Source: Halobellus litoreus
GTDB lineage: Archaea; Halobacteriota; Halobacteria; Halobacteriales; Haloferacaceae
Reading direction: 5' to 3'
Assembly (NCBI RefSeq): GCF_024464595.1
Contig: NZ_JANHAW010000004.1
Span: 124,001-188,000 of the forward strand
Length of the DNA: 64,000 bases
Under the pieces are notes generated by a model. It was not told the DNA's origin and ran no database searches. It was given only the letters and a program-made list of their open reading frames with translations. A program made the position numbers and the translations under genes. Below are positions 15,454 to 60,010 of this stretch, one piece after another (the stretch's first letter is position 1; each line of letters starts with the position of its first letter).

Positions 15454-15525
15454 GCGATCTCTCCGCCGCTGGTGATTGGTCGTCGGTCCGACGCTGGCGT
15501 ACCGGCCAGACCGGTGCTGAACATC

Positions 15526-19338: not shown

Positions 19339-22300
19339 TCAGCTAATCCCTCCATCACTCGCTTCGTGCATCGCGACGACCTGAAGGTCGCCAGACTTCT
19401 CTGGATGCTCGTCTACGTGTCGGCTCAACGCCTGCTCGGCCTCGGTCCGCGTCGCACCATCGATGACGACGCCTTCCCGAGACAGGTCGGCAGAACTAGC
19501 GACGACGTACCCAGTCTCTTCCACGTCGATGCGCTGGTCCGGGCCGTCGTACTTCGCCTGCCCTGTAGTGCGTGTCTCTGCCTGGGCGACCGCACTCGAA
19601 TTCGCCAGCGCGTTGGCGACATCGAGCGGCAGGCCGAGTGGGTCATCGAAGGGTTTGGCGTACACGTCGAGCGACGCATCGTCGACGTCGGTCTCGTACT
19701 CGAGCGTCGTGGTCGTGATGAGCGACGGGTCGGATTCGCCGCCGTACGCCAGGAGGTCGTTCCCGATTCGTCTGCCTGCAGGGAGTCGCTCGAATCCAGG
19801 GCGGGAGAGCTTCTCGTCGTCCGTCAGGTCGAAGTACTGGGCCGGTGCGAACTGCTCTCGAATCGCCTCCCCTGCCGGGGGTCGTGGCTGCTCTGCCGTC
19901 CCTGGCTGTGTCTGTGAGCTCCCCTCGATGGAGACGTCCGTGATCCCGAACGTATCGTATCTGAGCGGGGCTGCGCTACCGTATCTGTCGATCGCGATGT
20001 CGAGGGGGACGACTCGCTGGCGAACACTGAGCGTGCCGAGGGGGTGTGCGAGGACCTCTCCGTCGGTGGCGTCCACGTCACGGAGCGAGACGACAGTCCG
20101 GTTGTCTTCGGGGAGCTGGGCTGCCCAGTTCCCGTCTCGCTCGATTGCCGCCTGCAGTTCACCGAGGACGTCCGGCGGTGGAAGCGTGGACGGGTCGGCT
20201 CGCTCGCCGAACTTTTTCTCGACGCTGACCGAGAACGAGAAGAACAGTATCTTGAACTTCGCTCGGCCTTTGACGTGCCACGGCGCTGGCCCCGAGAACA
20301 TCCCCTCGAACGAGATGGACATCAGCGTCGAGCCGCCGACTTTGAGGGCGACCCCTGCAGCCACGTCGACCACGAATTTGAACGGATCGAACTGGAAGAG
20401 GGCGTCGAAGCCGAGGTATCCACTGATGCTGAACTTCCCGGCTGCCGCGTAGAGGTCGACTCGAGCCCCGAACTGCACCGTATTCGAGGTGACCGCGAAG
20501 TAGCCAGCGAGTCGTAATCGCGGGTTGTTCCCCGGACAGAGGTTGAGCGAGAGTCGCCGGAGGTCGGGGAACTCTGGCGGTGGGGTGAATCGCGGATTGA
20601 ATCCACCGACCGACAACCCGAACCCCGGATTATCCCCCCAGCTCGAACGTAACGCCATATCTCCGGTGATGACGAGCGTGACGATCCGGGAATCGGAGAG
20701 GCTGGCGTCCACGGAGGCCGTCCCCTCACCGAAGTCGACGACTCCGAGGGCGTCCATATTGAGTTCGATGAGTGCGCCTTCTTCGGCGGGCAGCACGGCG
20801 CTGATTCTGCCGAGGATAGCCAGCCGGATCGGTGCCGGGAGCTCCAGGAGGATGCCGACGTCGGCGGTGACGATGGGTGGGGTCCCCCACGCGAATCGCG
20901 CCATCGGCCCGATCACGTGTCGGTCGTTCATCGGTGGGAAGATGCTACGGAGGTCGCTGATGAGCTGTGGTGCGTTCCGAACGGGATCTTCCGGGAAGAG
21001 GACGGACTTCATCGATCCCTTCTTGAGCCCGGATCGCAGGACGTCGAACTGGGTCGTCCGGTTGACGCCGAGCAGTCCACCGAGTGCGTTGAGCGTGACG
21101 CCCATCCCGAGTTGGATCGGGGGGAACTCACCGGAGATGATGATCAGCAGCGAGAACCCATCCTCGCCGCCTGGGAGTCGGGTCGTAAGCAGGCCGACCG
21201 CGTTGACGACGATGTCCCCGAACGCGAGCTTCAGCGTTCCCTCGTATCGCTCGTTTTCGGCGTCGAACGAGAGATAGCCCTCACCGGTCACCGCGCTTGC
21301 GTCTATCGAGATACCGAATCCTTTCGGTGGGCTGAACCCTACGTCCGCATCGACCGGACCGAACGTTCCGTCGCGCCCCGCAGGGAAGTCGATCTCGGCC
21401 TCGATTCCGATACGTTCGACGACACCCGAGATGGGTCCGAGCGTGACACCGATCGAGGCGGTTCCCTCCATCACGACGCCCCGGTCGGCGACGGAGAGGC
21501 CGAGGAAGATCTCGGAGAGCGTCACCGGACCGAGCGACCGATGCTGGGGGAGCGAGACGGAGAGCGAACCGCCACCTTGGAAGAAGAGGCCGGAGTCCGA
21601 GGACCACCCCACGGAGGTGTCGATGTCGGTTTCGATACCACTGGCGGGGAGGATCGACCGCAGGAAGCCGTCCGCCTCGGCGGGTATGACGGCCAGGCGC
21701 GTTCCGACGGGGAGTTCGACGAGGAAGGAGGCGTCGTCGCCAGAGTACTCGACGGCAGCACGGGCCGATACAGAGGTCAGCGAGAGGTTACTGGCACTCT
21801 CGTCGCCGAGTAACACGGTCGGGTCGCCGTCCACCGTGCTTCGTTCGAGTTCGACCGACCCCCGGAGTTCCGTCGGCGTGCTGGTACTGCCGGGTGTGAG
21901 GAGCGTCGCACCGCCGGGACGAACGACGAGAGCGCAGTCCGTGGCTCCCGCGGCGGAGAGGTCGATGGAGAACGTCCAGTCGTCGTCGAGACGCACCGTC
22001 TCGTCCAGTCGTCCGTCCGCGGAACCGGCTCCCGTCAGTGACTGGAGACCGTACGGAGCGATGGCGATCCCGGGGGGCCGACCGAGCGGCGACGACGGCG
22101 CCGTGACTAAGAACAGCCCCGCTTCTCTTTCGCCTTCAGCCGTGTCGAGGTAGACGATCGGGATCCGAAGCCGTTCCGTGACGAGATCCCCGTCCCCTGG
22201 GGCGATACTCCGCCACCGCTCGGTCGGTGGTTGCGGCTCGAGACTTGCTGGGATTTTCAATCCAAGGAGGATACCTCGTAGGTGTGAGAGCAGCTGAAGG

Positions 22301-22848
22301 CCGTCGAACGCCTCACTCCCCCATCGGTATCGCCGACGCACGTACTGATTCGGTGATGTCAGCGAATCCACCAGACGTCCGAAGTCGAGCGCTTCGGGAT
22401 ACCCCCGTTCGTCCTCCGATACAGCGCCGACGATCTGGATCAGATCGAAGAGTTGCGGATGTTCTTCGGAGACGTACCTGACGAGAAGGTAGTCGAAGAG
22501 GGGTTCGACGACGTCCGGGTCGTCGACGTACGCTTCGAATTGCAGGTCGTCCAGCCGATGAACTGCGTCGACCAGCGTCTTCGAGAGAGAGACGATCCGG
22601 GATAGGTCCTCGACGTCCGGTGGCTCGTCACCAGTCAACAGCGACTCTAGCGTCTGATACGCGTCGGAGACATCGTTCGCGATGGATTCGAGATTACTCT
22701 TGTCTGCTAGAACGTACTCCAGGTCGACTCCCGCCTCCGTCGCGAGGAAGACGAGTCCGTCCGGTCCATCCTCCGCTGCGGTTCCGAGTGGTTCGACGAA
22801 CTTCCTGAACTCTGCCGCGATCCCGACTTTCGTGTGCTGGGGTGCCAT
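19339..22848 (-). CDS. Second gene of the giant operon, DUF6603-like beta-rich protein
   Basis: A protein of 1169 residues. The first 200 residues are helical. From about 200 onwards it is almost all short alternating beta strands with few charges (SVSLPQHRSLGPVTLSEIFL, GISIDASAVTGEGYLSFD, GFSLLIIISGEFPPIQLG). Residues about 590-885 match my memory of DUF6603, with FNPRFTPPPEFPDLRRL and VSVEKKFGE. Such continuous beta sheet could form a long groove or barrel-like rod, but that is inference. The C-terminal 280 residues are more polar and end in a small domain with YVVASSADLSREGVVIDG. It begins 12 bp after the first gene and abuts the third. No enzymatic motif is visible. Confidence 0.93.
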   Translation of the reverse strand: MAPQHTKVGIAAEFRKFVEPLGTAAEDGPDGLVFLATEAGVDLEYVLADKSNLESIANDVSDAYQTLESLLTGDEPPDVEDLSRIVSLSKTLVDAVHRLDDLQFEAYVDDPDVVEPLFDYLLVRYVSEEHPQLFDLIQIVGAVSEDERGYPEALDFGRLVDSLTSPNQYVRRRYRWGSEAFDGLQLLSHLRGILLGLKIPASLEPQPPTERWRSIAPGDGDLVTERLRIPIVYLDTAEGEREAGLFLVTAPSSPLGRPPGIAIAPYGLQSLTGAGSADGRLDETVRLDDDWTFSIDLSAAGATDCALVVRPGGATLLTPGSTSTPTELRGSVELERSTVDGDPTVLLGDESASNLSLTSVSARAAVEYSGDDASFLVELPVGTRLAVIPAEADGFLRSILPASGIETDIDTSVGWSSDSGLFFQGGGSLSVSLPQHRSLGPVTLSEIFLGLSVADRGVVMEGTASIGVTLGPISGVVERIGIEAEIDFPAGRDGTFGPVDADVGFSPPKGFGISIDASAVTGEGYLSFDAENERYEGTLKLAFGDIVVNAVGLLTTRLPGGEDGFSLLIIISGEFPPIQLGMGVTLNALGGLLGVNRTTQFDVLRSGLKKGSMKSVLFPEDPVRNAPQLISDLRSIFPPMNDRHVIGPMARFAWGTPPIVTADVGILLELPAPIRLAILGRISAVLPAEEGALIELNMDALGVVDFGEGTASVDASLSDSRIVTLVITGDMALRSSWGDNPGFGLSVGGFNPRFTPPPEFPDLRRLSLNLCPGNNPRLRLAGYFAVTSNTVQFGARVDLYAAAGKFSISGYLGFDALFQFDPFKFVVDVAAGVALKVGGSTLMSISFEGMFSGPAPWHVKGRAKFKILFFSFSVSVEKKFGERADPSTLPPPDVLGELQAAIERDGNWAAQLPEDNRTVVSLRDVDATDGEVLAHPLGTLSVRQRVVPLDIAIDRYGSAAPLRYDTFGITDVSIEGSSQTQPGTAEQPRPPAGEAIREQFAPAQYFDLTDDEKLSRPGFERLPAGRRIGNDLLAYGGESDPSLITTTTLEYETDVDDASLDVYAKPFDDPLGLPLDVANALANSSAVAQAETRTTGQAKYDGPDQRIDVEETGYVVASSADLSREGVVIDGATRTEAEQALSRHVDEHPEKSGDLQVVAMHEASDGGIS

Positions 22849-22860
22849 CGAAGACTCTCC

Positions 22861-25026
22861 TCAGAGGTCCTCGTCTATCTTCGCTCGTCCCCGGACGACG
22901 AACGGACTTCGGTGCGTTTCGCTCTCGATCGCCCCGCCAGCCACGTCCGGGAACAGATCGGGCTGGAGGAGTTCCACCTCTACCCATCCCTGTTGGCCAG
23001 GCGCAGTCAGTTCCTGTCGCGAGACGCCGAACACGTCTTCGCAATCTGCGCTCTCGAGTGTTCCCCAGAACGACGTGACTTCCTGTTCATCCCTCCCCTT
23101 ACTGCCCGGACATTTGAACTGGAACTCGAACTCGGCACCGTTCTCGGCTTTGCCGGAGATCTTCGGATACACCGTCTTGAATTCGTTCCAACTCTTGGAT
23201 AGATCTGGCACCCGGAATCTGTGTGTCACCGGAGCGAGTCCCGATACCTTCGTGTTGCCCTTGGCTTTCTGTAGAAGGTGCCGGAGAGGGAAGATACTCC
23301 AGTACTGGCTGAGCCCGGGCAAGAACTTCTCGACGGGGACTGTCACCCACGGTCGGACGTTTATCTGTGTGTGCGAGCGGGTGGATTTCAACTCGCTCAC
23401 CTCCAGCTTCGTCTTGAACTCCCCACTCTCGTACTTCAGGTCGGGCTCGTCGAGTTTGAACCCCCGCTGCATCGAGAACCACGCGGACAACTGCCGGGGG
23501 AAGTTCGGTCTCCAGAGTCGGAGGTCCTTCTTCGGATCGCGGAACTCTCCCCACTTGAATGCCATCTCGCTCGGATCCTCGTACTTGGCGGCTGTCTTCA
23601 GGAGGGCATCCACAGAGCCACCCTGCAACGCTTCGATGGGGTCGAACCACTCCGTCCCGAAATAGGAGTTCTGTAACCAGCGCTCGATGGGGGAATCGGC
23701 GCTGAAGATGATCAAGAGGGTTCCGACGGCAAGAACGAGGAGCCCTACTGGACCCAGAACTGACGTGTACGCGACAGTCGATAGCAACAGGAGGCCCTGA
23801 CCGCCGGCAGCGAGGAAGGCACCGGTCGCGACCGACTTATCTCCGTATCGCAAGGCTGACTGAGCGCGTTTCAGATCGAGGCACATATCCACCACTGAGA
23901 AGACTGCGAGCGTCTTCCCGAGGAAGGACCGGAAGGTCTTCCGCAGTCTCTTGAGGTTGTGTTTTGCGTCCTTGGCGACGATATCTGCGAGCCGATCGTA
24001 CAGCCGCAGCCCGTCGTCGATGACCTCGGCGAAGATCTTGGTGAACTCGAATACGTTCTGGAGCGTGGGATCGCCCAGCACCTTGTCGAACTGTAATATC
24101 GCTCGCGGAATCCGGATCGCTGCGGCGATGACTGTGTTTGCGATGACCGCGTTTCTCCCGGTCATCAGCCGCTCGGCGTCGGGTTTGGTACTCTTCCCTA
24201 TCTTGGACTCCTCGTCCTTGACGATCTCCTCCCCGATCGCGACCATCTGGTCCTCGAAGCTCTGTGCGAGTTTGCTCGCCTCCCCCGCCCCCGAGGTCTG
24301 CTGAAGCTTCGTCGGGTCGACGAACTTCGAGATCAGTGTCCGCCAGAACTGGTTCGCTTTCTTCACCTCCTCCGTGGTGTGTTTGGTTCGGAGGAACTGG
24401 ACGATACCCGGGAACATATTCATCGCGAACGTCGACAGCTTCTCGTACTCGGAGAGGTGTTGCCTGAACTCCGATACCTGCTCGTCGAGTGATTTCGAGG
24501 GGTCGATCTGGTGTCCGGGGAACTGTTCCAGAAGGACATTCGGCGGAAACACCGGGGTCTCATCGCTGAACTGGCGTCGAATGAAGTCGAGTCCCACCTT
24601 GGTTCCGGACAGACCTTCGATCAACTCCGCCGCTTTCTGTTCCATCCCGGGAGGAAGCGTGGTCGACTGCTGGGGGGACTTCGTTCGCCAGAACGCCTGC
24701 CTGAACGACGGACTTTCGAGGTGGGTGACCAGCCTGTCGGTGCTCCGTTCGAGTTTCTCTCTCCGTCGTTCTACGACGGAGGAGTATCTCTTGTACCTGG
24801 GGTCGAGAACGTCTTTCAGGTCCTGATGACTCGGGAGATCGTCGTCCTTTCCCCACTCCTCGTTCTGACTGGTCTCCCGGAGGTTGTCGATCCAGGACCA
24901 CAGGGTGAGCTTTCCCTTCGGTTTGGACGTGACCCTTCGCCAATCGACGAGTGCGTTCTCGAAGCTCTTGTGGAGCACCAGAGCCTCGCCCACCGGCCCG
25001 TACGTGCCTGCTACTTTCCCCGCCAT
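22861..25026 (-). CDS. First gene of the giant operon, pore-toxin-like 721-residue protein
   Basis: The operon's first gene, starting at the ATG MAGKVAGTYGPVGEAL. The N-terminal 390 residues are helical and unusually rich in lysine for a haloarchaeon. Residues about 395-445 form two hydrophobic segments (ATGAFLAAGGQGLLLLSTVA and GPVGLLVLAVGTLLIIF). They are followed by SPIERWLQNSYFG, a tryptophan-leucine ... phenylalanine-glycine motif that recalls the region after the membrane segments of VasX-like type VI secretion effectors. The C-terminal 260 residues are beta-rich. This suggests a membrane-active or pore-forming protein, but the likeness is from motif memory only. Its basic composition contrasts with the acidic partners encoded next to it. 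Confidence 0.92.
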   Translation of the reverse strand: MAGKVAGTYGPVGEALVLHKSFENALVDWRRVTSKPKGKLTLWSWIDNLRETSQNEEWGKDDDLPSHQDLKDVLDPRYKRYSSVVERRREKLERSTDRLVTHLESPSFRQAFWRTKSPQQSTTLPPGMEQKAAELIEGLSGTKVGLDFIRRQFSDETPVFPPNVLLEQFPGHQIDPSKSLDEQVSEFRQHLSEYEKLSTFAMNMFPGIVQFLRTKHTTEEVKKANQFWRTLISKFVDPTKLQQTSGAGEASKLAQSFEDQMVAIGEEIVKDEESKIGKSTKPDAERLMTGRNAVIANTVIAAAIRIPRAILQFDKVLGDPTLQNVFEFTKIFAEVIDDGLRLYDRLADIVAKDAKHNLKRLRKTFRSFLGKTLAVFSVVDMCLDLKRAQSALRYGDKSVATGAFLAAGGQGLLLLSTVAYTSVLGPVGLLVLAVGTLLIIFSADSPIERWLQNSYFGTEWFDPIEALQGGSVDALLKTAAKYEDPSEMAFKWGEFRDPKKDLRLWRPNFPRQLSAWFSMQRGFKLDEPDLKYESGEFKTKLEVSELKSTRSHTQINVRPWVTVPVEKFLPGLSQYWSIFPLRHLLQKAKGNTKVSGLAPVTHRFRVPDLSKSWNEFKTVYPKISGKAENGAEFEFQFKCPGSKGRDEQEVTSFWGTLESADCEDVFGVSRQELTAPGQQGWVEVELLQPDLFPDVAGGAIESETHRSPFVVRGRAKIDEDL

Positions 25027-31560: not shown

Positions 31561-32801
31561 CTATTCGTTGGGCAACACCGCGGCACCCTCGACGGGATGC
31601 CACTGGTGATCGTCCCACTGGAACCGCACGGGCCGTGCCGTCGGCCTGACTGTCGGGCTCGTCGCCTGCGCAAGCAACGCTTTCGACGCAACGAGATCAG
31701 CGTGTCCCTCGAAGCCACACGGGCAGGTGAGTGTCTCTTGATGCCGGCGTGTTCGGTCCCGCTCGCCACACTTCGGACAGGTCTGGGACGTCCACGCCTC
31801 GGAGATTGTTTCTACGTCAATCCCGTACTCTTCGCAGACGGATGAGAGTCGATCAATGCACTGTCGGTGTGCCCAGAACGACCGTGCCTTGAGGTTCGCC
31901 TCCACCGACCAGTACTCGCCGGCACCCCGGTGAGATCGCCGTGGTAGAGCGTTGAGATACCAGCTGCCTCTAAGCGCTCGACTAAGTCCCGAAGGAGTGC
32001 GTTTACTGCGTGGTCACGTCGCCGCGAGCGTTTGCGATAGAGTCGTTTGATTCGTTGACTCGTGTGTTGTCCATCAGGGAGTTTCGCTTGAGCGCTGGCG
32101 ATAGCGTTAGTCGTCTCGCGAAACTGCTCGAATGGGTGGTGGCCACTGTAGAGATACTGCCCACCGGTTGTTGTCGTACAAGCAACGAGCACGTTTGCGC
32201 CGAGATCGAGTGCAGCGGCCTCAGAGCCATCTGGTCTGCTCTCTTCGACATCGCCGATGGTTACGGATTGATGCACACGGTACGTCTCTTCGACCGGGTC
32301 GTACGAGATTTCGAGTCGACCACCGTCACCACACCACTTCGGATTGCCCCGAACCGGTAACCGAAGCCGTTCGTACATTCCGAATCCGTATTCGTCTTTG
32401 AGATCCATACCGATGCGGATTTCCAGTCGGGACCGCCTATTCCACTGAATGGTGTACGAATCGTTTCGAATGTAGGTTCGGAGCTCTCGGCCATCGTCTT
32501 GATTCCCCCAGTAGCCGGGGGGACTCGGATCGTACTCAGGATCGCCGAGAAGTTCGAAGAAGGATCGCCACGCAGTATCGTTCACGCGAGCGATCTGTTG
32601 GGTCGTCGCTCCGCTTAGCACGTCGACGTACTCGTCGTAGTAGCCATCGCACTCCCAGACACTTTCGCCATCGAAGAACTGCTGGCGGCGGTCGTAGGTG
32701 AGTTTATTCCAGAGGCTTGCCGACGCGTCCAGCACTCGCGTAAGGATCTCTTCTGTTGTTTCAGAGTCGGGAGCGATATCGAACGTATTCGTTCGTTTCA
32801 T
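31561..32801 (-). pseudogene. tnpB: TnpB of an IS1341-type element, frameshifted
   Basis: Two minus-strand frames, 32801 to about 31920 and about 31905 to 31561, make one TnpB of about 410 residues. The first holds ALDLGANVLVACTTT (first RuvC Asp) and YHGDLTGV, where the usual catalytic Glu position is Gly. The second holds a zinc ribbon (CPKCG, CPCGF) and [12 protein letters not shown] (last Asp). A single-base indel near 31910 breaks the frame between GDLTGV and EYWSVEANL. The hairpin GCGCCCG/CGGGCG near 32955 on the minus side is probably the left end, and the palindromic stretch near 31500 the right end. The element is probably immobile by its own means. Confidence 0.78.
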
Positions 32802-40321: not shown

Positions 40322-40370
40322 GGGTCGTTCCTAATGACCGTTTCCAGCGAAACAGTAGAGAGTGTTTGGG

Positions 40371-40706
40371 TCACTCCGCCGGCGCCGTGACAAGGTGCTC
40401 CTCGAGGTCGCGCGTCCAGTAGGTAGCTGGCCCGCCGGGACTACACCGGGCGCAGAGTTGGAGTGGGCCTTCTAGGTGGCCGAGTTCCACTCGGAACCGC
40501 GTCAGCGCCGCGATCGTGTCAACGACGAGCCCACACCCGTCGCAGGCGTGGTAATCGCGCTCGTCGGGATCCGGCCGCGTCTGGATGGCGCAGTCGACAC
40601 AGATCGGGTGGGTGACCCGCTCGTCCTGCCCCCAGGTATGGGCTTCACCGGCTTCGGTGCCGGGTGGGGCGTCACAGAAGGCACAGCCAGTGAGCGTCTG
40701 CTGCAT
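40371..40706 (-). CDS. Zinc-ribbon plasmid protein, intact copy A
   Basis: A 111-residue protein begun at the ATG MQQTLTGCAFCDAPPG. Its A is shared with the stop of the upstream gene (TGATG), which indicates coupling. It holds four cysteine pairs (CAFC, CVDC, CDGC, CARC), likely two zinc ribbons, and a C-terminal YWTRDLEEHLV. Two further copies lie at 46559-46934 and 53165-53549, but both are broken by the same 49-bp insertion; this one is intact. The function is unknown. Its constant neighbour is the 96-residue protein encoded just upstream. Confidence 0.78.
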   Translation of the reverse strand: MQQTLTGCAFCDAPPGTEAGEAHTWGQDERVTHPICVDCAIQTRPDPDERDYHACDGCGLVVDTIAALTRFRVELGHLEGPLQLCARCSPGGPATYWTRDLEEHLVTAPAE

Positions 40707-40996
40707 CACTCACCTTCCACGTCGGCGTCGCGACCGGCCGTCCAACCACGGTGGAAGACGGCCAGCTGCGTGGCTGAATCGAACGCAGTACCACTCGGCT
40801 CGTGAACCAGAACTTGGTCCTCGGGAACCGGAGTGACGACGTCCGCGTCGATGAGGTCGTCGACCAAGCGACGGGCTGTGGCATCGTCGACGTCCGCCGT
40901 GTCGACGCTGGTGGCGTCGCGGTCCTGGGCGAGCAACTCTTTCTCGAACTGTTCGTGGTCGGCACTCGTGTCGTGGTGAGGATCGGGACCAGCCAT
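40706..40996 (-). CDS. 96-residue acidic plasmid protein, copy A
   Basis: An acidic helical protein (EQFEKELLAQDRDATSVDTA, RRLVDDLIDADVVTPVPEDQ, VLVHEPSGTAFDSATQLAVF). It is nearly identical to copies at 46934-47224 and 52875-53165. It always precedes the zinc-ribbon gene, with overlapping stop and start codons. No known domain is recognised. At this locus it is preceded by the nuclease gene at 41126-41671, so the three probably form one maintenance or defence module. Confidence 0.8.
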   Translation of the reverse strand: MAGPDPHHDTSADHEQFEKELLAQDRDATSVDTADVDDATARRLVDDLIDADVVTPVPEDQVLVHEPSGTAFDSATQLAVFHRGWTAGRDADVEGE

Positions 40997-41125
40997 AATG
41001 GGTCACGCAGCGCACACTGTCGCGCGCTTCACGCCTTCCGGCGTGCACGAGAAACAGCGTTCTCGTGCGCACACCAGAACGCTCCGCGTTCTGGGGACGC
41101 GGATAAACAGTCAGGAGGGACAGCG

Positions 41126-46558: not shown

Positions 46559-46934
46559 TCAGTCAGAGACGATGTGCGCCTCGAGATCGCTCGTCCAGTA
46601 CGTCGCAAGCCCGCCCGGGCTACAGCGAGCGCACAGCTGCAACGGCCCTTCGAGATGCCCCAGTTCGACCCGAAACCGCGTGAGCTGGGCGGGACCGAAG
46701 GTCCCGCTAGAAGCCGGCGTGAAACGTCGGCGACGCCGTGAGCGCGTCGACGACGAGCCCACAGCCGTCGCAGGCGTAGTGATCGCGCTCGTCGGGATCT
46801 GGTTCCGTCTGGATCGCGCAGTCGACGCAGATGGGATGGGTGTCCCGTTCATCTTCGCCCCAGGTATGCGCCTCGCCAGCTTCGGTACCGGGCGGGGCGT
46901 CGCAGAACGCACACCCCGTGAGCGTCTGCTGCAT
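46559..46934 (-). pseudogene. Zinc-ribbon plasmid protein, copy B, broken by a 49-bp insertion
   Basis: The N-terminal 76 residues match copy A (CAFC, CVDC, CDGC) but run into PTFHAGF and a stop. The C-terminal part (LTRFRVELGHLEGPLQLCAR) continues in another frame to 46559. The break is a 49-bp insertion containing the hairpin GCGGGACC-TTC-GGTCCCGC. The same insertion is found in copy C, so it predates the separation of B and C. The truncated product may still be made. Confidence 0.75.
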
Positions 46935-47224
46935 CACTCGCCCTCCGCGTCGGCGTCACGGCCGGCCGTCCAGCCACGGTGGAAGACAGCCAGTTGCGTC
47001 GTCGAGTCGAACGCGGTACCGCTCGGCTCGTGAACGAGGACGCGATCCTCGGGAACGGGTGTGACGACGTCCACGTTGATGAGATCGTCGACCAGGCGAC
47101 GGGCGGTCGTGTCGTCGACGTCCGCCGTGTCGACGCCAGCGGCGTCGCGGTCCTGGGCGAGCTGTTCCTTCTCGAACTGTTCGTGGTCGCGACTCGTGTT
47201 GTCGTGAGGGTCGGGACCAGCCAT
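46934..47224 (-). CDS. 96-residue acidic plasmid protein, copy B
   Basis: It is nearly identical to copy A (EQFEKEQLAQDRDAAGVDTA, RRLVDDLINVDVVTPVPEDR). The stop overlaps the ATG of the zinc-ribbon copy. Upstream lies only the tail of the nuclease gene, so this module copy has lost its nuclease. The reading frame itself is intact and probably expressed. The function is unknown. Confidence 0.78.
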   Translation of the reverse strand: MAGPDPHDNTSRDHEQFEKEQLAQDRDAAGVDTADVDDTTARRLVDDLINVDVVTPVPEDRVLVHEPSGTAFDSTTQLAVFHRGWTAGRDADAEGE

Positions 47225-47298
47225 AATGGGTCACGCAGCGCTCATAGTCGCGCGCTGCACGGCTCGCGACGCTGATAAACAGCTACAGCGGGGTAGTG

Positions 47299-47444: not shown

Positions 47445-47882
47445 CTATGGAGTCTGGAGTTCTCGAACTGGCTTCACGGTGAACGTGTCTGGCTCGCTTG
47501 CTGCTGCCTCTCGCGTATCCGCCGGCGGGGATGCCGATCGAGTGAGCTGGGTGATGAGTTCGTCGCGAACGATCTTTCGAGGGACGGTAGTCTCGTTCCA
47601 CCCAAGCCGACTGTCGAAGTGTCCCTTCTGGAAATGCTGGCCGACGTCGTCGACGGCGACGTACTGCGTGCGTTTCGTCCCCCACACCTGCTGGGCAACG
47701 ACGACTGCCCCCACCTGTTCGTGAGTCAGTTCGACGAGGGCACACTCAACAAGCGCGACGAGCGACGCGTGATCCCGATCGCTTGGGATTGCCACCTCGA
47801 GGTCCGCCCACGGAGCCTCCCCGTCGGAGTTGGTTGCTGCTTGCTGTACCGTCTGCGTCTGGGTCGTATGTTCCGAAGCCAT
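47445..47882 (-). CDS. Unknown 145-residue plasmid protein
   Basis: A soluble protein with an alpha/beta pattern (LVALVECALVELTHEQVGAV, AVDDVGQHFQKGHFDSRLGW) and a disordered C-terminal tail. No family is recognised. It lies downstream of the PrimPol-type genes on the same strand, with 74 bp in between, so it may be the last gene of that replication operon. The DNA-binding-like charge pattern is weak evidence only. Confidence 0.65.
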   Translation of the reverse strand: MASEHTTQTQTVQQAATNSDGEAPWADLEVAIPSDRDHASLVALVECALVELTHEQVGAVVVAQQVWGTKRTQYVAVDDVGQHFQKGHFDSRLGWNETTVPRKIVRDELITQLTRSASPPADTREAAASEPDTFTVKPVRELQTP

Positions 47883-47956: not shown

Positions 47957-48607
47957 CTACTCGGACCGACCGCCGAATAACCGACTCAACATAGAGGATG
48001 GCCCTGACTCAGCACCGTTCTCACTCGCAGTAGAGACGTGCCCGCCCTGGGACTCCTCCTCCTGGCCACGGGTGGCGAGTTCGTCAGTGAGTCGCTCGAT
48101 CTCCGCTTCGAGAGCGTCGATCCGCTTGGTTTTCTCCGCTAGTGTCGCCTCGAGTTCGTCGACACGCTCGCTCAATATCCGATTCTTCTCGGCGAGATAC
48201 GCGCGACTCCGCTCCGAGTCAGCAGCGCCGACGTCCGGAGACGATCCGTCGCGGGTGTCGTCCGCGGTATCGTCGCCGGCGTTCGGGTCGTAGAACTCGG
48301 AAGTAGTCGCAATCGCTCGTTCGATGGTCTTCTCGCCGTACGTCGACCCATCAGCGTAGTGGACCTCGTCCCACTTCTCCCGAAGCAATCCTGACTGCCG
48401 GAACAGCTGCTCCATCTGCGTCCGGTCGCCGCCGGTCCAGAACGCCAGCAGACAGCACAGCGCCATGTCGGCCTCGGACTGGCTGTCGTAGCCGGCTGTG
48501 TTCCCGTTCCAGAGCCGCTCGAACTTCTCGCCGTTCGACGCATTCCGTGCCTTCTCCAGGAGGTCCTCGTCGTCGAGGTCGACGTCAACGTCGACAGCAT
48601 CGGTCAT
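47957..48607 (-). CDS. PrimPol-type replication protein, C-terminal part
   Basis: A 216-residue protein, started at the ATG MTDAVDVDVDLDDEDLLEKA. Residues about 20-115 (GEKFERLWNGNTAGYDSQSE, MALCCLLAFWTGGDRTQMEQ, LLREKWDEVHYADGSTYGEK) match the helix-bundle domain that follows the polymerase domain in NrS-1-like primase-polymerases. The rest is a coiled coil (ILSERVDELEATLAEKTKRI). The frame extends upstream to overlap the primase-domain gene, suggesting the two were once one protein and that an indel near 48660 split them. It may still work as a separate subunit. Confidence 0.72.
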   Translation of the reverse strand: MTDAVDVDVDLDDEDLLEKARNASNGEKFERLWNGNTAGYDSQSEADMALCCLLAFWTGGDRTQMEQLFRQSGLLREKWDEVHYADGSTYGEKTIERAIATTSEFYDPNAGDDTADDTRDGSSPDVGAADSERSRAYLAEKNRILSERVDELEATLAEKTKRIDALEAEIERLTDELATRGQEEESQGGHVSTASENGAESGPSSMLSRLFGGRSE

Positions 48608-48656
48608 CGGTGCCCGGTCGTTAGCGCCACCACGCTGTTCGGACTCGGATGCTGTG

Positions 48657-49211
48657 TCACGCTCGGTGTTCCTGGACGTACTCGCGGTGAATCGCTGTGA
48701 GCGCGTCCTGTCGGCGTGCAACGCGCGTCGGGGTCCGCTCGACGTGGTCGCCAGTAACGGTGAAAAAGCGTGCCGTGTCGTACAGTTCGACGCTCCCGCG
48801 ACGGTTCCGCCCGTCGGGGAGTTCGCCGGTAATCAGGACGTGATAGCCAGTACCGGACGGTGACACCTCCGTATAGGAGTCGAGTCGTGCGATGATGTCC
48901 AGCGCGACGTCGTCGGCGTCGCCGGTTTCAGGATCGCGGCAGTCGTCCAGATCCACGCCGACGATGGGATCGTCGTCAGTAAACACGAACCCGATGCCAT
49001 CGGCGTGCTCTGTCTCGGTGTAGTCACGTGCTGCCTCGAAACTCGCCCAGGTCTCCGACTCGGTTGCTGACGCGAACCCCCCAGCCCCTGGCGTCACCGG
49101 AATCTTCGTTGGCTTGCCGTCTCGCTTCTCTTCGCGCCAGCACACCCACTGGTCCCGTTCGCGTAGCGTCTCCGGAATCGCCTCCGGCTTGTCGATCATA
49201 GGCTCACTCAT
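48657..49211 (-). CDS. PrimPol-type replication protein, catalytic N-terminal part
   Basis: A 184-residue domain of the NrS-1-like bifunctional DNA primase/polymerase type: DQWVCWREEKRDGKPTKIPV near the start, catalytic acids in DDDPIVGVDLDDC (about residue 85), SPSGTGYHVLITGELPDG (about 120) and a C-terminal RRGSVELYDTARFFTVTGDH. It would prime and copy plasmid DNA. It ends with a stop at 48657 just where the frame of the C-terminal part begins. Iterons lie directly upstream (49336-49512), as expected for a replication initiation locus. The ATG at 49211 is preferred over the GTG at 49217. Confidence 0.8.
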   Translation of the reverse strand: MSEPMIDKPEAIPETLRERDQWVCWREEKRDGKPTKIPVTPGAGGFASATESETWASFEAARDYTETEHADGIGFVFTDDDPIVGVDLDDCRDPETGDADDVALDIIARLDSYTEVSPSGTGYHVLITGELPDGRNRRGSVELYDTARFFTVTGDHVERTPTRVARRQDALTAIHREYVQEHRA

Positions 49212-49335
49212 CCTCACGTAGCACCTCGCATGGCTCTCACTGGCTCTGAGCCAGCACAGAACTCTCTCTGCTGTACGTCGCGATCCAATCCCTTGGTCCC
49301 AACGGGGACCCCCCGTTCTATCCTAGTTGGTTGTT

Positions 49336-49512
49336 GGGTGGAACACTCACTATCGCTGGTTGCAAACCGCTGGACGTGAGCGTGTTCCACCCATTTCGCT
49401 CGGTTCGTTGGTGTTCCACCCATTGGGTATTTGGGTGGAACATGCCGCCGTCTGGTGGTTTCCGACCTACGAATTTGAGCGGATGGGGTCATGATTCTAT
49501 CTGGGTGGAACA
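49336..49512. repeat. Five iterons GGGTGGAACA upstream of the PrimPol gene
   Basis: The 10-bp box occurs forward at 49336-49345, 49433-49442 and 49503-49512, and inverted (TGTTCCACCC) at 49383-49392 and 49412-49421. The 350-bp gap 49212-49562 holds no gene. The arrangement beside a primase-polymerase gene suggests a replication origin or its regulatory region. Confidence 0.65.
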
Positions 49513-49562: not shown

Positions 49563-52500
49563 TCATGGCTGAAAGTCCTCCTCAGAGCGAATGCGGACAC
49601 CAGTGTAATGCCGGACGGGTTCCCCGTCGATTCGCTTCTTCGTGGAGTCCACCTCGATATGGGTGTTGAGCTTCCGTGTGAACCAGCTCTTATTCAGCGG
49701 ATCGTCGATGTCATGCGCCTCTGCCCAGTCGTTGTAAAGGCCGAATACGTCATCTTTCGGCACGGCTCCATCCGCGTCTTCGACAAGATATTCGTCGACG
49801 AACGATTCGAACGACGGTGGCGATGGGTCTTCTTGCTTCTCTTCGACCGGCTCATTGGCCTGGTCGGTCTGACTAAGTGGTTCGTCAGCAGCCGATGATT
49901 CCGACGATGCGGGACGGAGTGCCCCGTCAGTGATTGTCGAGAGTGGCCGCTTCTCACCGTCTTCATACACGACCGATTCCGCCTCATCGTGAAGGATGAC
50001 GATGCCGTACGTCGAACGTGTGTAGTCTGGTACGGGGATTTCGGCTTCGGGGACGAATGGTTTCTTGACACGCACCCAGTCGTCCTCGAACGCCGATTTC
50101 GTCTCGTAGATGTGTTGCTCACCGTGCTCGTATACCACGTACTCGTCGGCAGCGTGATCGTAGCTGTAGATGGCCGGAACACGATCTTTCGAGAGTTTTC
50201 CAAGCGACGGGAGGCGTATGTGTTCCGTCCCGCTGGCATCACGAAGGACGATCTCGTCGCCATCACGCTGCCAGATATTCTGGGTCCCGTTCTCGTCCCC
50301 GGTCGCCGGTCGCACGGCCGTCACTCCACCTTCTTCGGTCGCTCCACCGTTGAACGTGAGATTCGAGTCAGTCGTGTAGAACCGTGTCTCACCATTCTGG
50401 AGGGTACGGACGGGTGGTGTGAGAATGCCGTCGACACGCTCGGCCCACTCAGTTTCGTCTGTTCCTGGTCGAACGACAAACAGCGGGATATCCCCTGCTT
50501 CTTGGGCCTTCCGGAGATTCGTGAGCACTTTCGCGGGATTCTCGGGTGTCGTCGTTTCGACTTCGATGGCGAATCGGTCGTCAACGTCGGGGTGGCTCGC
50601 CCTCGCGTCAGGTTTCTCGCTGCCATCCTGTGCGAGGATCGAGACAGTGAAGCCGAGTGCGGTGAGCTCTTCTTCGATCTGGCGGAGTGCTGCGTCGTGA
50701 GCACTTCCACCAGCGGCCTGCACGCCACCAGTATCGGGTGTCGCGACTGCTTCTCCGGCTTCAGTGAGCCGGATGCGGAGCTCGTCGGCGTCGATATCGA
50801 CGGTCGTATCCAGGTATCGTGATCGTTCTCGGATGTCTGCGAGTGCATCATACGATGGCGGCTCGGCGTCGACGTCGTCGAAGAGCCGTCTGAGTTCGTC
50901 GTCAACTGCTTCAACGGCCACCCAGCCGTTCTCCTCGCGGCAGCCCTCTCGAAGCTGCAGACTCCGAACTACGTTCGCAATCGCGACGTCCAGGTCGTCG
51001 CTCCCGATATCGAGCACCTCGTGTCCGTCGGTCGGTGTTCTCGTTGTTGAGGCGTCTGTTGCGGCCGGCACGCCGTGTTCGTCACTGATGTGCTCGTGCA
51101 TCGAGGAGAGCGTCTCAGTGAACTGCTCCTCTTCACGCGCTGTGAGTGGGGATTCGCTTTCGGGGTGGCCCGGTGGAATCGGGAGTGGTTCGAGACTGAA
51201 CGGATACGGCCCCGTTTCACCGAACGTCGGGCTTGGCAGGCTGGCGATCCACTCTCCGCGCGGCAACGAACGAATTCGATTGGCGAAATCCGCGGGGTCC
51301 ATTTCTTCGTGGGCCATCGCTCGTGCCAGTTCCCGGTCGACGTTGATTTTCCCGATGAGCGAACTACCGATGTTGTTCAGAGCGTTCAGGTAGATCTTCC
51401 GCCCACCTTCAGCCTCCATCTGTTCGGGGAACTGCATCGACAGGCCAACAGAGAGCCGGAATCCCCGGCCCTTCTCGAGGAGATCGTTCATGATGTCGGA
51501 GACCACGACCGACGCTGCCTCGTCGACGAGCAAGTTCACGACGTAGTCGTCCGGGTGCTGGGAGAGCGCCTGTTTGCGATCTTTGAGAGCTGCATCGAGA
51601 TTGGTCAGGATCACACCGGTCATAATCCGGGCAGCATCGTCGCGGAGGTCTCCGAGGTCGAAGAGGATGACTGTATCCTCGCCGAGGAGATCCCGGAAGT
51701 CGAACTGGTTCTCGGTATTATTGAAGATCTGACGCAGGTGCGTATCCTGTGAAATATAGGCGAGACGGTTTCCGACACCGCCCATCACGTTCCCGAAGGT
51801 GTTCGAATCTAACTGGAGTTGTCGCCGGATCGTCCGTGTGACTTCCTCGCTGCTCGACCGTGGGGCGTCGCCGATGTTCTCGTTCGGTGGTCCGGCCTCC
51901 CAGAGCTGGTCAACGGCGTGTTCCAGCTGTCGGTGGGCGAAGTAGTCAGTCGACGCTCGGTACTGCCCGTTCTCACGCCCGTATTCCTCGTCGAACAGTG
52001 CCTTGATGAGTGTCTTGATGAGGGTCGGGGCCACAGTTGCCCGCTCGTAACGATCGGTTCCCATCACGAGCTTCAAAATCTCTTCGTAGTGGTCGGCCTT
52101 CCGTTGGACGGCGTCTTCGCGGCGCCGTCCGCTCTCCATCGACGGTTCGAGATCGAAAAACGAGAACCCGGGGAGGACGTCTGGTACCGGGAAGTAGACG
52201 ACGTTCTCTTCGAGGTCGGTCATTCCAAACCGACGCGCGTGAGCCCGCATGTAGTTCTGGACCATGTTGTCGTTTTTTGGATTGATGAAGATCGTCGGCC
52301 CCTCGGTGTTGTCGTACAGCGACAGCAGATCGTTGATCAGGGCTTTCGACTTCCCAGAGCCGGTTGTTCCGAACCGGCCGTAATGAGTGGGCAACAGTCG
52401 GGGCGGGATATGTGTCGGCACGTCTTCGGCCTCGCCGGTGTCGTCGAGAGCATACCCGATTGCCATCCCGTCTCGGAACTCACGCATGAGGTCCTGATGA

Positions 52501-52799
52501 GGACGGGGCAACGGATTCCGACTCTGCTGTTCCGCACGCGTCCCACGTGTCCCCTCGACAGTAAGCTGTTCCGAGGAGGGGACGAGGACGAAGTGCGCGA
52601 GTTCTCGGCCGCTCAGGACGAACTCCGGTCGGGTCTTTCCACGGCCAGTCGTGATCTCACGATCCAAGATCCGCTGCAGCGCCGCTCGTGCGTTCCGGTC
52701 TTTCGTGGCTTCCCGCAAGCCGTTGTCGCGTACCCGTTCGGCAGCAACCTCATAGTACGGCCCGTCAAGCGGGTCGAATACCGGAACAAGTGATTGCAT
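49563..52799 (-). pseudogene. HerA/TraG-like ATPase with nuclease-like domain, 5' end lost
   Basis: About 1080 residues remain. The motor has Walker A GRFGTTGSGKSKALIND and Walker B VVNLLVDEAASVVV, as in VirB4/TraG/HerA ATPases of haloarchaeal plasmids. Further on, ASHPDVDDRFAIEVETTTPE looks like a PD-(D/E)XK nuclease core, and the C-terminus (VFGLYNDWAEAHDIDDPLNK) resembles the winged helix of plasmid primases. Upstream of about 52860 the frame only reads the antisense of the 96-residue gene copy C, so the original N-terminus was cut off when that module arrived. A shortened protein from ATG 52799 (MQSLVPVFDPLDG) is possible. Its role was probably DNA transfer or partition. Confidence 0.72.
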
Positions 52800-52874
52800 C
52801 CGCTCATCGAGATCATCGTGACCGTCACTACCGGATGGAATCCCGACTACTCGAATGTTCGCGGTGAACGACCT

Positions 52875-53165
52875 ATGGCTACTCCCGATATCCACGACGA
52901 CACGAGTGCCGACTACGAACAGTTCGAGAAAGGGTTGCTCGCCCAAGACCACGACGCCGCCAGGGTCGACACGGCGGACGTCGACGATGCCACAGCCCGT
53001 CGCTTGGTCGACGACCTCATCGACGCGGACGTCGTCACTCCAGTTCCCGAGGACCGCGTTCTGGTTCACGAGCCGAGCGGCACCGCGTTCGACTCACCGA
53101 CGCAGCTAGCCGTCTACCACCGGGTCTGGACGGCCGCTCGCGACGCCGACGTGGAAGGTGAGTGA
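52875..53165 (+). CDS. 96-residue acidic plasmid protein, copy C
   Basis: Started at the ATG MATPDIHDDTSADYEQFEKG, and closely related to copies A and B (RRLVDDLIDADVVTPVPEDR, VLVHEPSGTAFDSPTQLAVY). It lies on the opposite strand from the truncated ATPase and covers its lost 5' region. The stop overlaps the ATG of the zinc-ribbon copy C. No nuclease gene or remnant is seen next to this copy. Confidence 0.78.
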   Translation: MATPDIHDDTSADYEQFEKGLLAQDHDAARVDTADVDDATARRLVDDLIDADVVTPVPEDRVLVHEPSGTAFDSPTQLAVYHRVWTAARDADVEGE

Positions 53166-53549
53166 TGCAGCAAACGCTCGTTGGCTGTGCCTTCTGCGAC
53201 GCCCCTCCTGGCACCGAGACTGGCGAGGCCCACACCTGGGGCCAGGACGAGCGGGTCACTCACCCGATCTGTTTCGACTGTGCCATCCAGACACGGCCAG
53301 ACCCCGACAAGCACGACCAGCACGCTTGCGACGGGTGTGGGCTCGTCGTCGACGCGCTCGCAGCGTCGCCGGCGTTTCACGCCGGCTTCTAGCGGGACCT
53401 TCGGTCCCGCCCAGCTCACGCGATTCCGCGTGTAGGTTAGCCATCTCGAGGGGCCGTTGCAACTGTGCGAGCGGTGTAGTCCAGGCGGGCTCGCGACGTA
53501 CTGGACGCGCGACCTCGAGGAACATCTCGTCGCAACGCCAGCGGAGTGA
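53165..53549 (+). pseudogene. Zinc-ribbon plasmid protein, copy C, broken by the same insertion
   Basis: The N-terminal 75 residues are intact (CAFC, CFDC, CDGC) and end in PAFHAGF and a stop at 53392. The former C-terminal part continues, degenerate, to 53549 (YWTRDLEEHLV is still readable). The break is the same 49-bp insertion with the hairpin GCGGGACC-TTC-GGTCCCGC as in copy B. The short product may be stable. Confidence 0.75.
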
Positions 53550-53638
53550 CCCCCTCCCGCATTTCTGGGCACGGAAACACCCGTCCACAGTAACAAACAT
53601 ACCAAACAACTATTTTCCAACAGTCCCAACACTAGTCT

Positions 53639-55959: not shown

Positions 55960-57228
55960 TTACGGTTCGCAACCCACCTGTTCCCTCGGGCGGAACGACC
56001 CAGAGGTTTGGTTGAACAGGTAGGCTACTGGCCGTGCCAAACGACCGTTACTCATATCCTCCGTTGGGGGATTCTGAGTTATCTTTCTGCGAATATTCAC
56101 CGCACCATTCACGTCCGCGTTCATCGTTGCACAGCACGATTCACAGACGTACAGGCCACGTTCCACACGGTTGGCGTCACGCTTCCGTCCACAGCACGAA
56201 CACGTCTTCGACGTATCTCTCTCGGAAACACGGTCAACAAGGATTCCGTGTTCCTCTGCTTTGTACTCCAAGAGCGTCGTGAAGCGGTCAAACTCCCACC
56301 CGTGGAGTTTCTTGTTCCCGCTTCGACCCCAGTCCCGTGACTCTCCGTTCTCGTCTTCATGAATATCGCTCAAGTCACCGATGGCAATACGACCAACTTC
56401 GTGGCCGATGCACCGCTCTACAACGTGCTTGGCGAGCGAGTGCAGGAAGTGGTCTTTCCGACGCGAGAGTTTCTGTCGGGCGCGAAGCGCACGGTGTGAC
56501 GGGCCGTTCTCGCCCTCTGTGTCGTACTCGTCACGAGTGAAGTAGTGCTTGTCCTGCTTCAGCACGTTCCCCGGATACAACTCGGCGTCACCGTTGTCGT
56601 AAGCGATCGCGAGGTAGTTCTTGATGCCGAGGTCGATCCCCGCCGTGTTGTCTCCCGGTGCGTCCTCGACGGGAATTTCGACCTTACAGACGAGGTGCAG
56701 TTCCCAGCGGTCGCCGTTCCAGACGGCGCGAACCTGCTGGATGTTCTCCACAGTCACGTCTGGTCGTGTTTTGTACTCACAGAGGATGAAGTCCGAGCGG
56801 TGGTTCTTTAGGTTGAATCCCTTGCTTAGACGAAGTTGGTTGTGCTTCGTGTCGTGCTTGATGCCTTTCTGCTTCCACGTCACGGTGGAGCGCGGGTGTT
56901 CGTCGCCGTGTTTGCGATAGCCCGGTGGGTTGGCGTCCTCGTCTCCGCGTTGGCGTGCTTTGTACCAACTGGTGAACGACTCAGCAAGCTCTTCAAGAAC
57001 TCGCTGACTTGACTGAGAATGTAGGTCACTGTATCGTTCGTGTTCCTTGAGTTCGGATTTGAGTTCGCCGTCGTCGGGGATTTCCCCGTCTTCATCCCAT
57101 CGGCCTTGCGTGTAGTATCGGGCGACATTCCACAGTTTCGACGCGGAGAACCCGCACTGGTTGAGGTCGTCACTCACCTGTTGGTGGTTAACGATTTTCG
57201 CCCGATAGGTGCGAGTTGTCTCCAGCAT
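55960..57228 (-). CDS. tnpB: TnpB of a second IS1341 subfamily, Glu to Gly at RuvC-II
   Basis: A 422-residue TnpB, started at the ATG MLETTRTYRAKIVNHQQVSD. RuvC motifs are NTAGIDLGIKNYLAIAYDNG (first Asp), RIAIGDLSDIHEDENGESRD and MNADVNGAVNIRRK (last Asp), with a zinc ribbon CSCCG and CESCC. At the position where copies 1 and 3 have FEDL, this protein has IGDL, with Gly in place of the catalytic Glu. Acidic residues follow closely (DIHEDE) and may substitute, or the nuclease may be weak or dead. It is only distantly related to the protein at 4151-5407. Confidence 0.88.
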   Translation of the reverse strand: MLETTRTYRAKIVNHQQVSDDLNQCGFSASKLWNVARYYTQGRWDEDGEIPDDGELKSELKEHERYSDLHSQSSQRVLEELAESFTSWYKARQRGDEDANPPGYRKHGDEHPRSTVTWKQKGIKHDTKHNQLRLSKGFNLKNHRSDFILCEYKTRPDVTVENIQQVRAVWNGDRWELHLVCKVEIPVEDAPGDNTAGIDLGIKNYLAIAYDNGDAELYPGNVLKQDKHYFTRDEYDTEGENGPSHRALRARQKLSRRKDHFLHSLAKHVVERCIGHEVGRIAIGDLSDIHEDENGESRDWGRSGNKKLHGWEFDRFTTLLEYKAEEHGILVDRVSERDTSKTCSCCGRKRDANRVERGLYVCESCCATMNADVNGAVNIRRKITQNPPTEDMSNGRLARPVAYLFNQTSGSFRPREQVGCEP

Positions 57229-57419
57229 CGGACTGTGTTCATAACCAGTTATGGGAGATTGTATATTAAAGGCAACGATTGGGCGTGGAATATCCAGCAG
57301 TGTCATGGAACGTGGTTAGTGGAGGAGTTGTCGGCTGTATCCCCGCCCTGAAGGACGGGGTTTTAGCCTTGCATCTCGCATAAAAGCGGGACTGCTTTAC
57401 CCACTTCCCACGAATACGC

Positions 57420-58604: not shown

Positions 58605-60010
58605 GTCAACTACCCCGTCCTACTCGCGCTGACCCGCTCGTTGAGGACGGGGCTTGTCCATGAGCTCGGCCTCGAACCCTTGCGGGTGGGCGGTGAATTC
58701 GCCGTTCGGCGTCACGGCCCCAGACTTTAGGGCAAGTTGACTGTCGCCCGTCCGCCGAGACGACTGTTGGCCTCGACGGACGTACCGCATCCCGATGTTC
58801 TTCGCCGCGTTGTAGTCCGCGTTCGCTTCCGACTCGCACTTCAGGCATCGGAAGTCATTTCTCGTCGGACGATTCTCGTCTGCCGTGAACCCACACTCGG
58901 CGCACCGCTGAGACGTGTACGCTGACCCGACTTCCTTCACCGAGGTTCCTTCCGCTTCGGCTTTGTACTCCACTTGCTCGTAGAGCGTTCTGAAGGCCCA
59001 CTTGTGACCCCACGACGCATTCGTTCGGTCGCGGATGTCGGTCAGGTCCTCGAATGCAATTATGTCACAGTCGTATCGGAGTGCTTCGCTTATCAGCGCG
59101 TTCGACGCTCGGTGGAGTACGTCACGGACGTAGCGAAGTTCCCGGCCGCTCGACTGTTCGAGCGTTCGGTGGGCGCTTCGCGTCCCGGTCTGTTGGAGTC
59201 CGGCACGCACCTTCTCAAACTCGCGGAGGTCGTGTGTTAACTCTCGCCCACTGAAGAAGTAGGCAGTGCTGGTGACGGCGAGGTTTTCGATACCGAGGTC
59301 AACCCCGAGGACCGTTCCGTCCTCGGCGGTGTTCCGCTCGGTGTCGGTCTTGTGGCGGCGGAATCCAATATGCAAGAAGTAGTCGCCGTCACGGGCGGTG
59401 AGGGTGCTTTCCGTGACGCTCCATTCGTCGGCGTCGATGTACTGCTGTTGGTAGCCATCGTCGGCGTCAGGCAGAGCAAGATCACACCGGATGCGACTCT
59501 CCGTGGTGGCGAGGGACACCGTATCGTCGTCAAACAGTGTCATTGTCCGAGTGTCGTATTTCACGGTCGGTGCGGTGAAGGTGGGCTTGCTCACCGTCTT
59601 GCCTTTTGACCGGCGTTCGATACAGCCGGTGATGGCTTGGGCGGCTTGGTGGGTGGCGAGAATCGCGTGCTGACTCCCGAGGTCGGTGTGTTCGCGCACG
59701 TCGTCGTAGGCGAGGGGTTGGATGTCGCTTTTGGCGTTGCACTTGCCCCACGCTATGTCCGTGGCGAGTTGGCACCCACGCTTCCACTCGGAGATGGTCT
59801 CTTCGAGGAGGTTGCATTGCTCGTCCGTAACTTCGAGACGAGTGATTGCCGTCCGACGAACGTAGTCGTCTGCCACTCTTTCAATGCAGACTGGAGGATA
59901 CTTATAGATGCGTGTTTGTAACCAAAACGTACGTGCTCCTCCCCTCCCTACTCGCTCCCGTTGGTCGCTCCTTGAGGAAGACGACTCCACGCTACCGCTT
60001 CAATTGAAAG
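58605..60010 (-). mobile_element. IS1341-type element, copy 3, sister of the element at 4022
   Basis: On the minus strand the left end CTTTCAATTGAAGCGGTAGC (down from 60010) and right end GGGGTAGTTGAC (finishing at 58605) match the element at 4022-5431. The hairpin CCCCGTCCT/AGGACGGGG before the end differs in sequence but keeps its pairing, which supports a structured guide RNA. Flanks differ between the two copies, so both ends are defined. Confidence 0.75.
58620..59876 (-). CDS. tnpB: TnpB, RNA-guided endonuclease, sister of copy 1
   Basis: A 418-residue TnpB started at GTG 59876 (ADDYVRRTAITRLEV), matching the start used for the copy at 4151; the longer frame upstream lies in the left end. 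RuvC motifs VDLGIENLAV, FEDLTDIRDRTN and ADYNAAKNIG and the zinc ribbon CAECG/CLKCE are present, although the last cysteine pair reads CLKCE rather than CVKCG. By eye the two proteins are about 90 percent identical, so they moved recently. It should be an active guide-RNA nuclease. Confidence 0.93.
   Translation of the reverse strand: MADDYVRRTAITRLEVTDEQCNLLEETISEWKRGCQLATDIAWGKCNAKSDIQPLAYDDVREHTDLGSQHAILATHQAAQAITGCIERRSKGKTVSKPTFTAPTVKYDTRTMTLFDDDTVSLATTESRIRCDLALPDADDGYQQQYIDADEWSVTESTLTARDGDYFLHIGFRRHKTDTERNTAEDGTVLGVDLGIENLAVTSTAYFFSGRELTHDLREFEKVRAGLQQTGTRSAHRTLEQSSGRELRYVRDVLHRASNALISEALRYDCDIIAFEDLTDIRDRTNASWGHKWAFRTLYEQVEYKAEAEGTSVKEVGSAYTSQRCAECGFTADENRPTRNDFRCLKCESEANADYNAAKNIGMRYVRRGQQSSRRTGDSQLALKSGAVTPNGEFTAHPQGFEAELMDKPRPQRAGQRE

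Follow-up and report, generated by a model that had tools for sequence, protein, structure and literature searches.

A short non-coding site in the window (the whole 64,000-nucleotide stretch of Halobellus litoreus DNA that was analysed) consists of an iteron array and a conserved core, and we read it, with slightly better than even confidence, as a decayed version of a widespread oriT-like candidate element carried by conjugative plasmids and integrative elements of haloarchaea. Intact modules in relatives have the order T4SS genes, VirB4, coupling protein (T4CP), iteron array, core and primase-polymerase (PrimPol) with its helix-bundle domain (HBD). The T4CP gene of the window was truncated, its PrimPol gene was broken, and the genome of the strain held no close VirB4 (the best match, on another contig, was 24% identical), so the window copy was taken to be a relic; its module is probably dead or retained as a cis site only.

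An exact match search located five copies of GGGTGGAACA at 49336-49512 in the orientation + - - + +, namely iteron 1 (49336..49345, +), iteron 2 (49383..49392, -), iteron 3 (49412..49421, -), iteron 4 (49433..49442, +) and iteron 5 (49503..49512, +). The first-pass annotation had described, upstream of an NrS-1-like PrimPol, five iterons that point both ways, which these exact sites and the match of the PrimPol ORF to the NrS-1 primase structure 6a9w (E 8.5e-24, an alignment that includes the DxD and SPSGxGxH stretches) bear out. The array lies between two minus-strand ORFs, one of 1168 aa with its stop at 49563 and the PrimPol ORF (48657-49217), whose start faces the array. The 3.86-Mb genome contained 13 exact GGGTGGAACA sites, five of them inside one 177-bp stretch, so the clustering is not due to chance. 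A lack of iterons upstream of homologous genes had been named in the annotation as telling against an origin; relatives keep the array. In those carrying the same repeat (class A), all five GGGTGGAACA sites were present at the same positions, spacing and orientation as in the window, with the exception of L044 and L066 (four sites) and L055 (two exact ones). Iteron bases were invariant at 39/45 positions as against 29/138 in the spacers among 20 class A loci, and at 29/45 as against 18/136 among 12 class B loci, a difference which suggests selection on the repeats.

Between the iterons and PrimPol lies a conserved core, CCAACTAGGATAG...CCCCGTTGG, at 49299..49330 (minus strand), which in the window has an inverted repeat, CCAAC (49326-49330) and GTTGG (49299-49303), around a TAG(T/G)ATAG stretch. 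The motif CCAACTAGTATAG was found at all 80 distinct loci where a T4CP C-terminus is adjacent and was missing at 10/12 loci where none is, as counted with a regular expression that was written after seeing these loci and that matched 17/2300 shuffled regions. The two core-bearing loci without an adjacent T4CP comprised L122, which resembles a chance match, and L095, which looks like a genuine core next to a T4CP that is broken. The groups with and without an adjacent T4CP overlapped in PrimPol identity. The consensus from 61 sequences was AAAACC(A/G)ACTAGTATAG, after which G-rich sequence and CCCCGTTGG come in most of them; the right arm was missing in L075, L076, L079, L080, L086, L089, L091, L097 and L117. 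The idea that the core is mainly a stable DNA hairpin was weakly supported: 87% of cells in the outer inverted repeat were paired, both sides were changed in 10/305 cells (modest compensation), and folding of the core as ssDNA was poor, with z below -2 in 1/6 cases. The core is therefore termed an inverted repeat. Convincing covariation was not found for an alternative inner stem. The complement of the core, TAGT(T/C)GGTTTT, shares TTGGTT with TTTGGTTA, given as the NrS-1 primase template recognition sequence in the available part of PMC8718748, only in CCAAC variants and not in CCGAC ones, which may be a coincidence.

The gene on the array's other side (49566..52799, minus strand, 5'-truncated) encodes a T4SS coupling-protein-like ATPase of the VirD4/TraD/HerA superfamily, as judged by weak profile matches and by its context in relatives. 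The similarity of the protein (P0003) to TraD, CedB, HerA, DUF87 and TraG was consistent though weak, below the curated cut-offs. Its relatives in public plasmids are annotated as conjugal transfer protein, primase-like DNA-binding domain-containing protein and others. Intact plasmids encode a T4CP of about 1440-1470 aa, of which about 330-370 N-terminal residues are missing in the window copy (in tblastn, the aligned part begins at residue 331 of 1469). The truncated 5' end runs into, and is overlapped by, an inverted 83% copy (52874-53531) of a cassette comprising a 96-aa ORF and DUF7558 (46568..47225, minus strand). This stretch was present in three copies in the window (80-85% identical) in both orientations, at 46568-47264, 40368-41036 and 52874-53552. 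A structure model of the whole truncated T4CP had a mean pLDDT of 34 and was left out of all inferences. An invariant pattern of D731, E746 and E748 at aa ~700-780 resembles what we would guess to be a PD-(D/E)XK nuclease motif; Pfam gave no support for such a nuclease in T4CP. The C-terminus (49566..49820, minus strand) is a predicted winged helix of Pox_D5/RFX-like type, with a Pox_D5 match at E 2.9e-7 and 31.3 bits against a curated cut-off of 21.4. Its model (pLDDT 67) gave middling Z scores in the fold comparison, both with the RFX DNA-binding domain (6.8) and with the NrS-1 C-terminal region (5.2). Foldseek returned no match to it at E 0.001 or better, and a sequence search of the PDB yielded weak matches only (a designed protein, E 0.0016, and RFX5, E 1.5).

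The repeats are exchanged together with this winged helix. Relatives with PrimPol about 80-90% identical carried other repeats in place of GGGTGGAACA, namely class B (TTACGGCAA), class C (GGTCAGGGG), class D (TTCAGGGCA) and class E (TGTCCACGC). Iteron similarity tracked winged-helix identity with a rank r of 0.65 at 63 of the 76 distinct loci, a correlation which alone is no proof of binding, since the winged-helix end and the iterons are contiguous and one recombination carries both. Dropped from the comparison were L033, L065, L083, L084 and L087, whose upstream frame was non-homologous or broken, and eight of the 76 loci at which fewer than four repeats were found (L075, L079, L080, L093, L097, L101, L106 and L117); the latter weaken the claim of a clear array at every locus. 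The partial r was 0.63 given the identities of PrimPol, the mid-region and the presumed nuclease region (T4CP aa 690-800, the label being presumed only), a value reached by 0/500 permutations; the partials of these three were 0.21, -0.06 and -0.10, respectively. Among pairs whose PrimPol identity was 85% or more, the 271 with different iterons had a median winged-helix identity of 34% and a presumed nuclease region at 93%, as against a winged helix at 92% in the 211 pairs with the same iterons. On the PrimPol tree (63 rows), the iteron class changed at least 28 times. Eight independent contrasts of class A against its winged-helix cluster gave a mean of 7.6 in the same direction and none in the opposite one. 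Class B iterons paired with four winged-helix clusters, and their contrasts gave four in the same direction and four without difference when taken strictly, or 8/8 when grouped post hoc. L108, with a PrimPol only 64-65% identical, had a class A-like winged helix (56%) and, at 1281-1330, repeats that resemble those of class A and are spaced almost as they are. If the module is a start site, the repeated exchange of reader domain and site would amount to a natural set of specificity swaps.

The genomic setting of the relatives was that of a conjugation system. Twenty-eight loci in named genomes were found, 23 of which hold T4CP and PrimPol with enough flank; L061 and L063-L066, which are degenerate or cut by contig ends, were left out of the VirB4 count. 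VirB4 was located directly upstream of T4CP in 23/23, so that a HerA/VirD4-superfamily P-loop ATPase (weak matches) adjoins VirB4, as in the VirD4/TraD type, and the site lay between the T4CP gene and PrimPol in the same 23/23. The operon of NZ_CP101324.1 comprised a pilin-like ORF (weak TrbC match), ORFs with signal or membrane stretches, TrbL/VirB6 (PF19590, E 1.2e-138), a further ORF, VirB4, T4CP and PrimPol. Genes for the large and small subunits of exonuclease VII, a single-strand exonuclease, were found just upstream of it (L139:23288-24525) and may belong to DNA transfer. At L111 and L123, PrimPol began less than 10 bp after VirB4, with no T4CP between them and no core. Copies of T4CP and core were also present on contigs of 2.8-3.6 Mb (L086, L091, L093, L097 and L106), presumably chromosomes, as expected of integrative conjugative elements.

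Twelve complete plasmids were chosen by hand from the PrimPol-bearing plasmid matches listed. All twelve encode Orc1/Cdc6, and the module is therefore not the only replication gene set of those plasmids. Pfam searches found neither the relaxase family PF03432 nor TrwC (PF08751) in any of the twelve (0/12 each); a relaxase outside these two families could exist. PLSDB typed 128/130 PrimPol-bearing plasmids as non-mobilizable and, despite such typing of most, listed MPF_T for 12/12 plasmids examined.

The PrimPol gene of the window is divided between two frames on the minus strand. The 186-aa NrS-1-like catalytic domain (48657..49217), which also matched phage primase PHROGs, is separated from the HBD by a frame change. 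The rest of the gene (47957..48619), with the HBD (PF22763, E 7.3e-32) and a C-terminal coiled coil, is in another frame, whose first ATG at 48607 agrees with the start that the first-pass annotation had given for the next domain. That annotation had left it to orthologues to decide whether the split is damage. An intact relative had PF22763 in the same frame as PrimPol, and PrimPol-HBD was one open frame of 434-459 aa in 20/20 relatives (L010-L029, 87-93% identical, the best 20 among the matches listed). Alignment with them revealed one extra base in the window, in the linker between catalytic domain and HBD, so the split reflects either a one-base lesion or a sequencing error. A natural gene split or a programmed frameshift giving two proteins could draw on the HBD frame having its own ATG, but was rejected as very improbable indeed in view of the single frame in those relatives and the extra base. 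The intact gene (417 aa) ends after the HBD and coiled coil, with no fused SF3 helicase and tail; a tail-like domain is found on T4CP instead. A 145-aa ORF follows 3' of PrimPol (47445..47882, minus strand), and some intact plasmids have a hypothetical gene of 147-aa size at the corresponding location.

Parts of the two genes flanking the site may derive from one phage-type enzyme. The phage primase profile phrog_1829 (772 positions) was matched at 4-335 by intact PrimPol-HBD and at 671-758 by the T4CP tail, the simplest reading being that parts of a phage-type PrimPol-helicase are now on two neighbouring genes. From these profile matches, we infer that the PrimPol and the tail of such an enzyme were split over two genes, with a T4SS motor in the place of the helicase. 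The primase-polymerase of phage NrS-1 has the order PrimPol, HBD, SF3 helicase and tail, and the modules resemble it in the PrimPol stretches, in the HBD and in a T4CP tail that matches the end of the same profile and aligns with the NrS-1 C-terminal region; they differ from it in that no SF3 helicase was matched in the gene, in the location of the tail-like domain on the neighbouring T4CP, and in their plasmid or integrative element context (on NrS-1 primase, the available parts of PMC7102993 and PMC8718748; on AEP families, that of PMC5862659). T4CP relatives were not found on viral contigs in two scans, and PrimPol relatives in phages were found only below 60% identity in the phage scan.

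In bacteria, a nicking enzyme (relaxase) is used to start conjugative transfer. The site resembles a bacterial oriT as a non-coding site with repeats and an inverted repeat beside the T4CP gene of a T4SS operon, but PF03432 and PF08751 were not found in the 12 plasmids, a PrimPol adjoins the site, and the presumed DNA-address domain is on the coupling protein itself. In the mechanism proposed for the transfer origin, the C-terminal winged helix of T4CP, which co-varies with the iterons, would bind the array, and the array would give each element its own address. The T4CP ATPase would open or pump DNA at the array, and PrimPol-HBD would start DNA synthesis de novo beside the core, making or replacing the transferred strand. 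Given such a de novo start, no classical relaxase would be needed. Tentatively, and with more doubt than confidence, we extend this to a relaxase-free start of conjugation in archaea, in which T4CP itself would read a swappable iteron address through a winged helix taken from a phage-type PrimPol-helicase and open the DNA, and PrimPol would begin a strand de novo at the core. If true, a phage-like replicase and the motor of conjugation would have become a single initiator of transfer and replication, with iterons and winged helix as exchangeable specificity (incompatibility) cassettes. If the site is a start site, the question is directly testable in cultivable haloarchaea, as the region is short and clonable and the two proteins are named.

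Sulfolobus plasmids, Thermococcus pT33-3 and the Ced/Ted systems have VirB4 and VirD4/HerA-like ATPases and, according to the available parts of PMC12857230 and PMC9905601, no recognised relaxase, and HerA-NurA resection is proposed instead in that of PMC9905601 (on archaeal T4SS and missing relaxases, see also those of PMC3158045 and PMC6563490). The modules described here have these ATPases in common with them, and differ in the repeat array, the core and the linked PrimPol by which a candidate start site is marked here. Rep-Arvir (DUF7845) proteins of haloarchaea are rolling-circle initiators with a hairpin origin (PMC13107129, in the part available). Like the candidate site described here, they involve a start point on an archaeal mobile element that has an inverted repeat, but DUF7845 was not found in 11/12 plasmids and was represented by a broken fragment in 1/12. 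A description of a T4CP-iteron-core-PrimPol module was not found in the available texts of the one bounded literature collection searched.

Against the transfer reading is the fact that iterons beside a PrimPol also look like a replication origin. The site would then be a vegetative origin (oriV) of an iteron-PrimPol replicon that acts besides or instead of Orc1/Cdc6, for example after excision or on entry into a recipient. The iterons, the NrS-1-like PrimPol and the D5-type winged helix are indeed replication parts, phrog_1829 is common to PrimPol-HBD and the T4CP tail, and in iteron plasmid origins a gene of replication type is likewise preceded by an array of short repeats of either orientation. 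We nevertheless consider a vegetative origin unlikely and a transfer origin the better fit, because Orc1/Cdc6 is also present in all twelve plasmids, the candidate binder is a coupling ATPase and no Rep, with the repeats following its winged helix, no SF3 helicase was matched in T4CP or PrimPol, and the core is missing from ten of the twelve PrimPol loci without an adjacent T4CP. The iterons might alternatively be operators, bound either by the winged helix of T4CP or by some unrelated regulator to control transcription of PrimPol and of the transfer genes, as could be argued from the location of the array in the presumed PrimPol promoter region and from its fixed position and orientation. This seems quite improbable for a winged helix that sits on a large ATPase and is exchanged as a reader together with its sites, and an origin is also the better explanation for five widely spaced sites and for the deep conservation of the core that lies beyond them.

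The first-pass annotation had proposed that the window may hold origins of two different plasmid types. One half of this proposal is sustained by an Orc1/Cdc6 gene, ending at position 304 of the window, and by four 23-nt repeats (TTACNNCTCGAAAACGGGGGGTG-like) after it at 457-649, which make a neighbouring Orc1-type origin plausible; the repeats are likely the vegetative origin. The other half, an origin of a second plasmid type, gives way to the transfer origin reading in view of the T4CP/VirB4 context, Orc1/Cdc6 in 12/12 plasmids, the copies on contigs of 2.8-3.6 Mb and the co-exchange with the winged helix. Elsewhere in the window, four very large adjacent ORFs of 2214, 1270, 1169 and 721 aa occupy 8809-25026; one of them matched Pfam (DUF6603) and the others nothing. 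Two inverted TnpB/OrfB-type (IS605) genes, 84% identical and about 54 kb apart, are located at 4022-5431 and 58605-60010, and further TnpB-like ORFs at 31812-32801 and 55960-57306.
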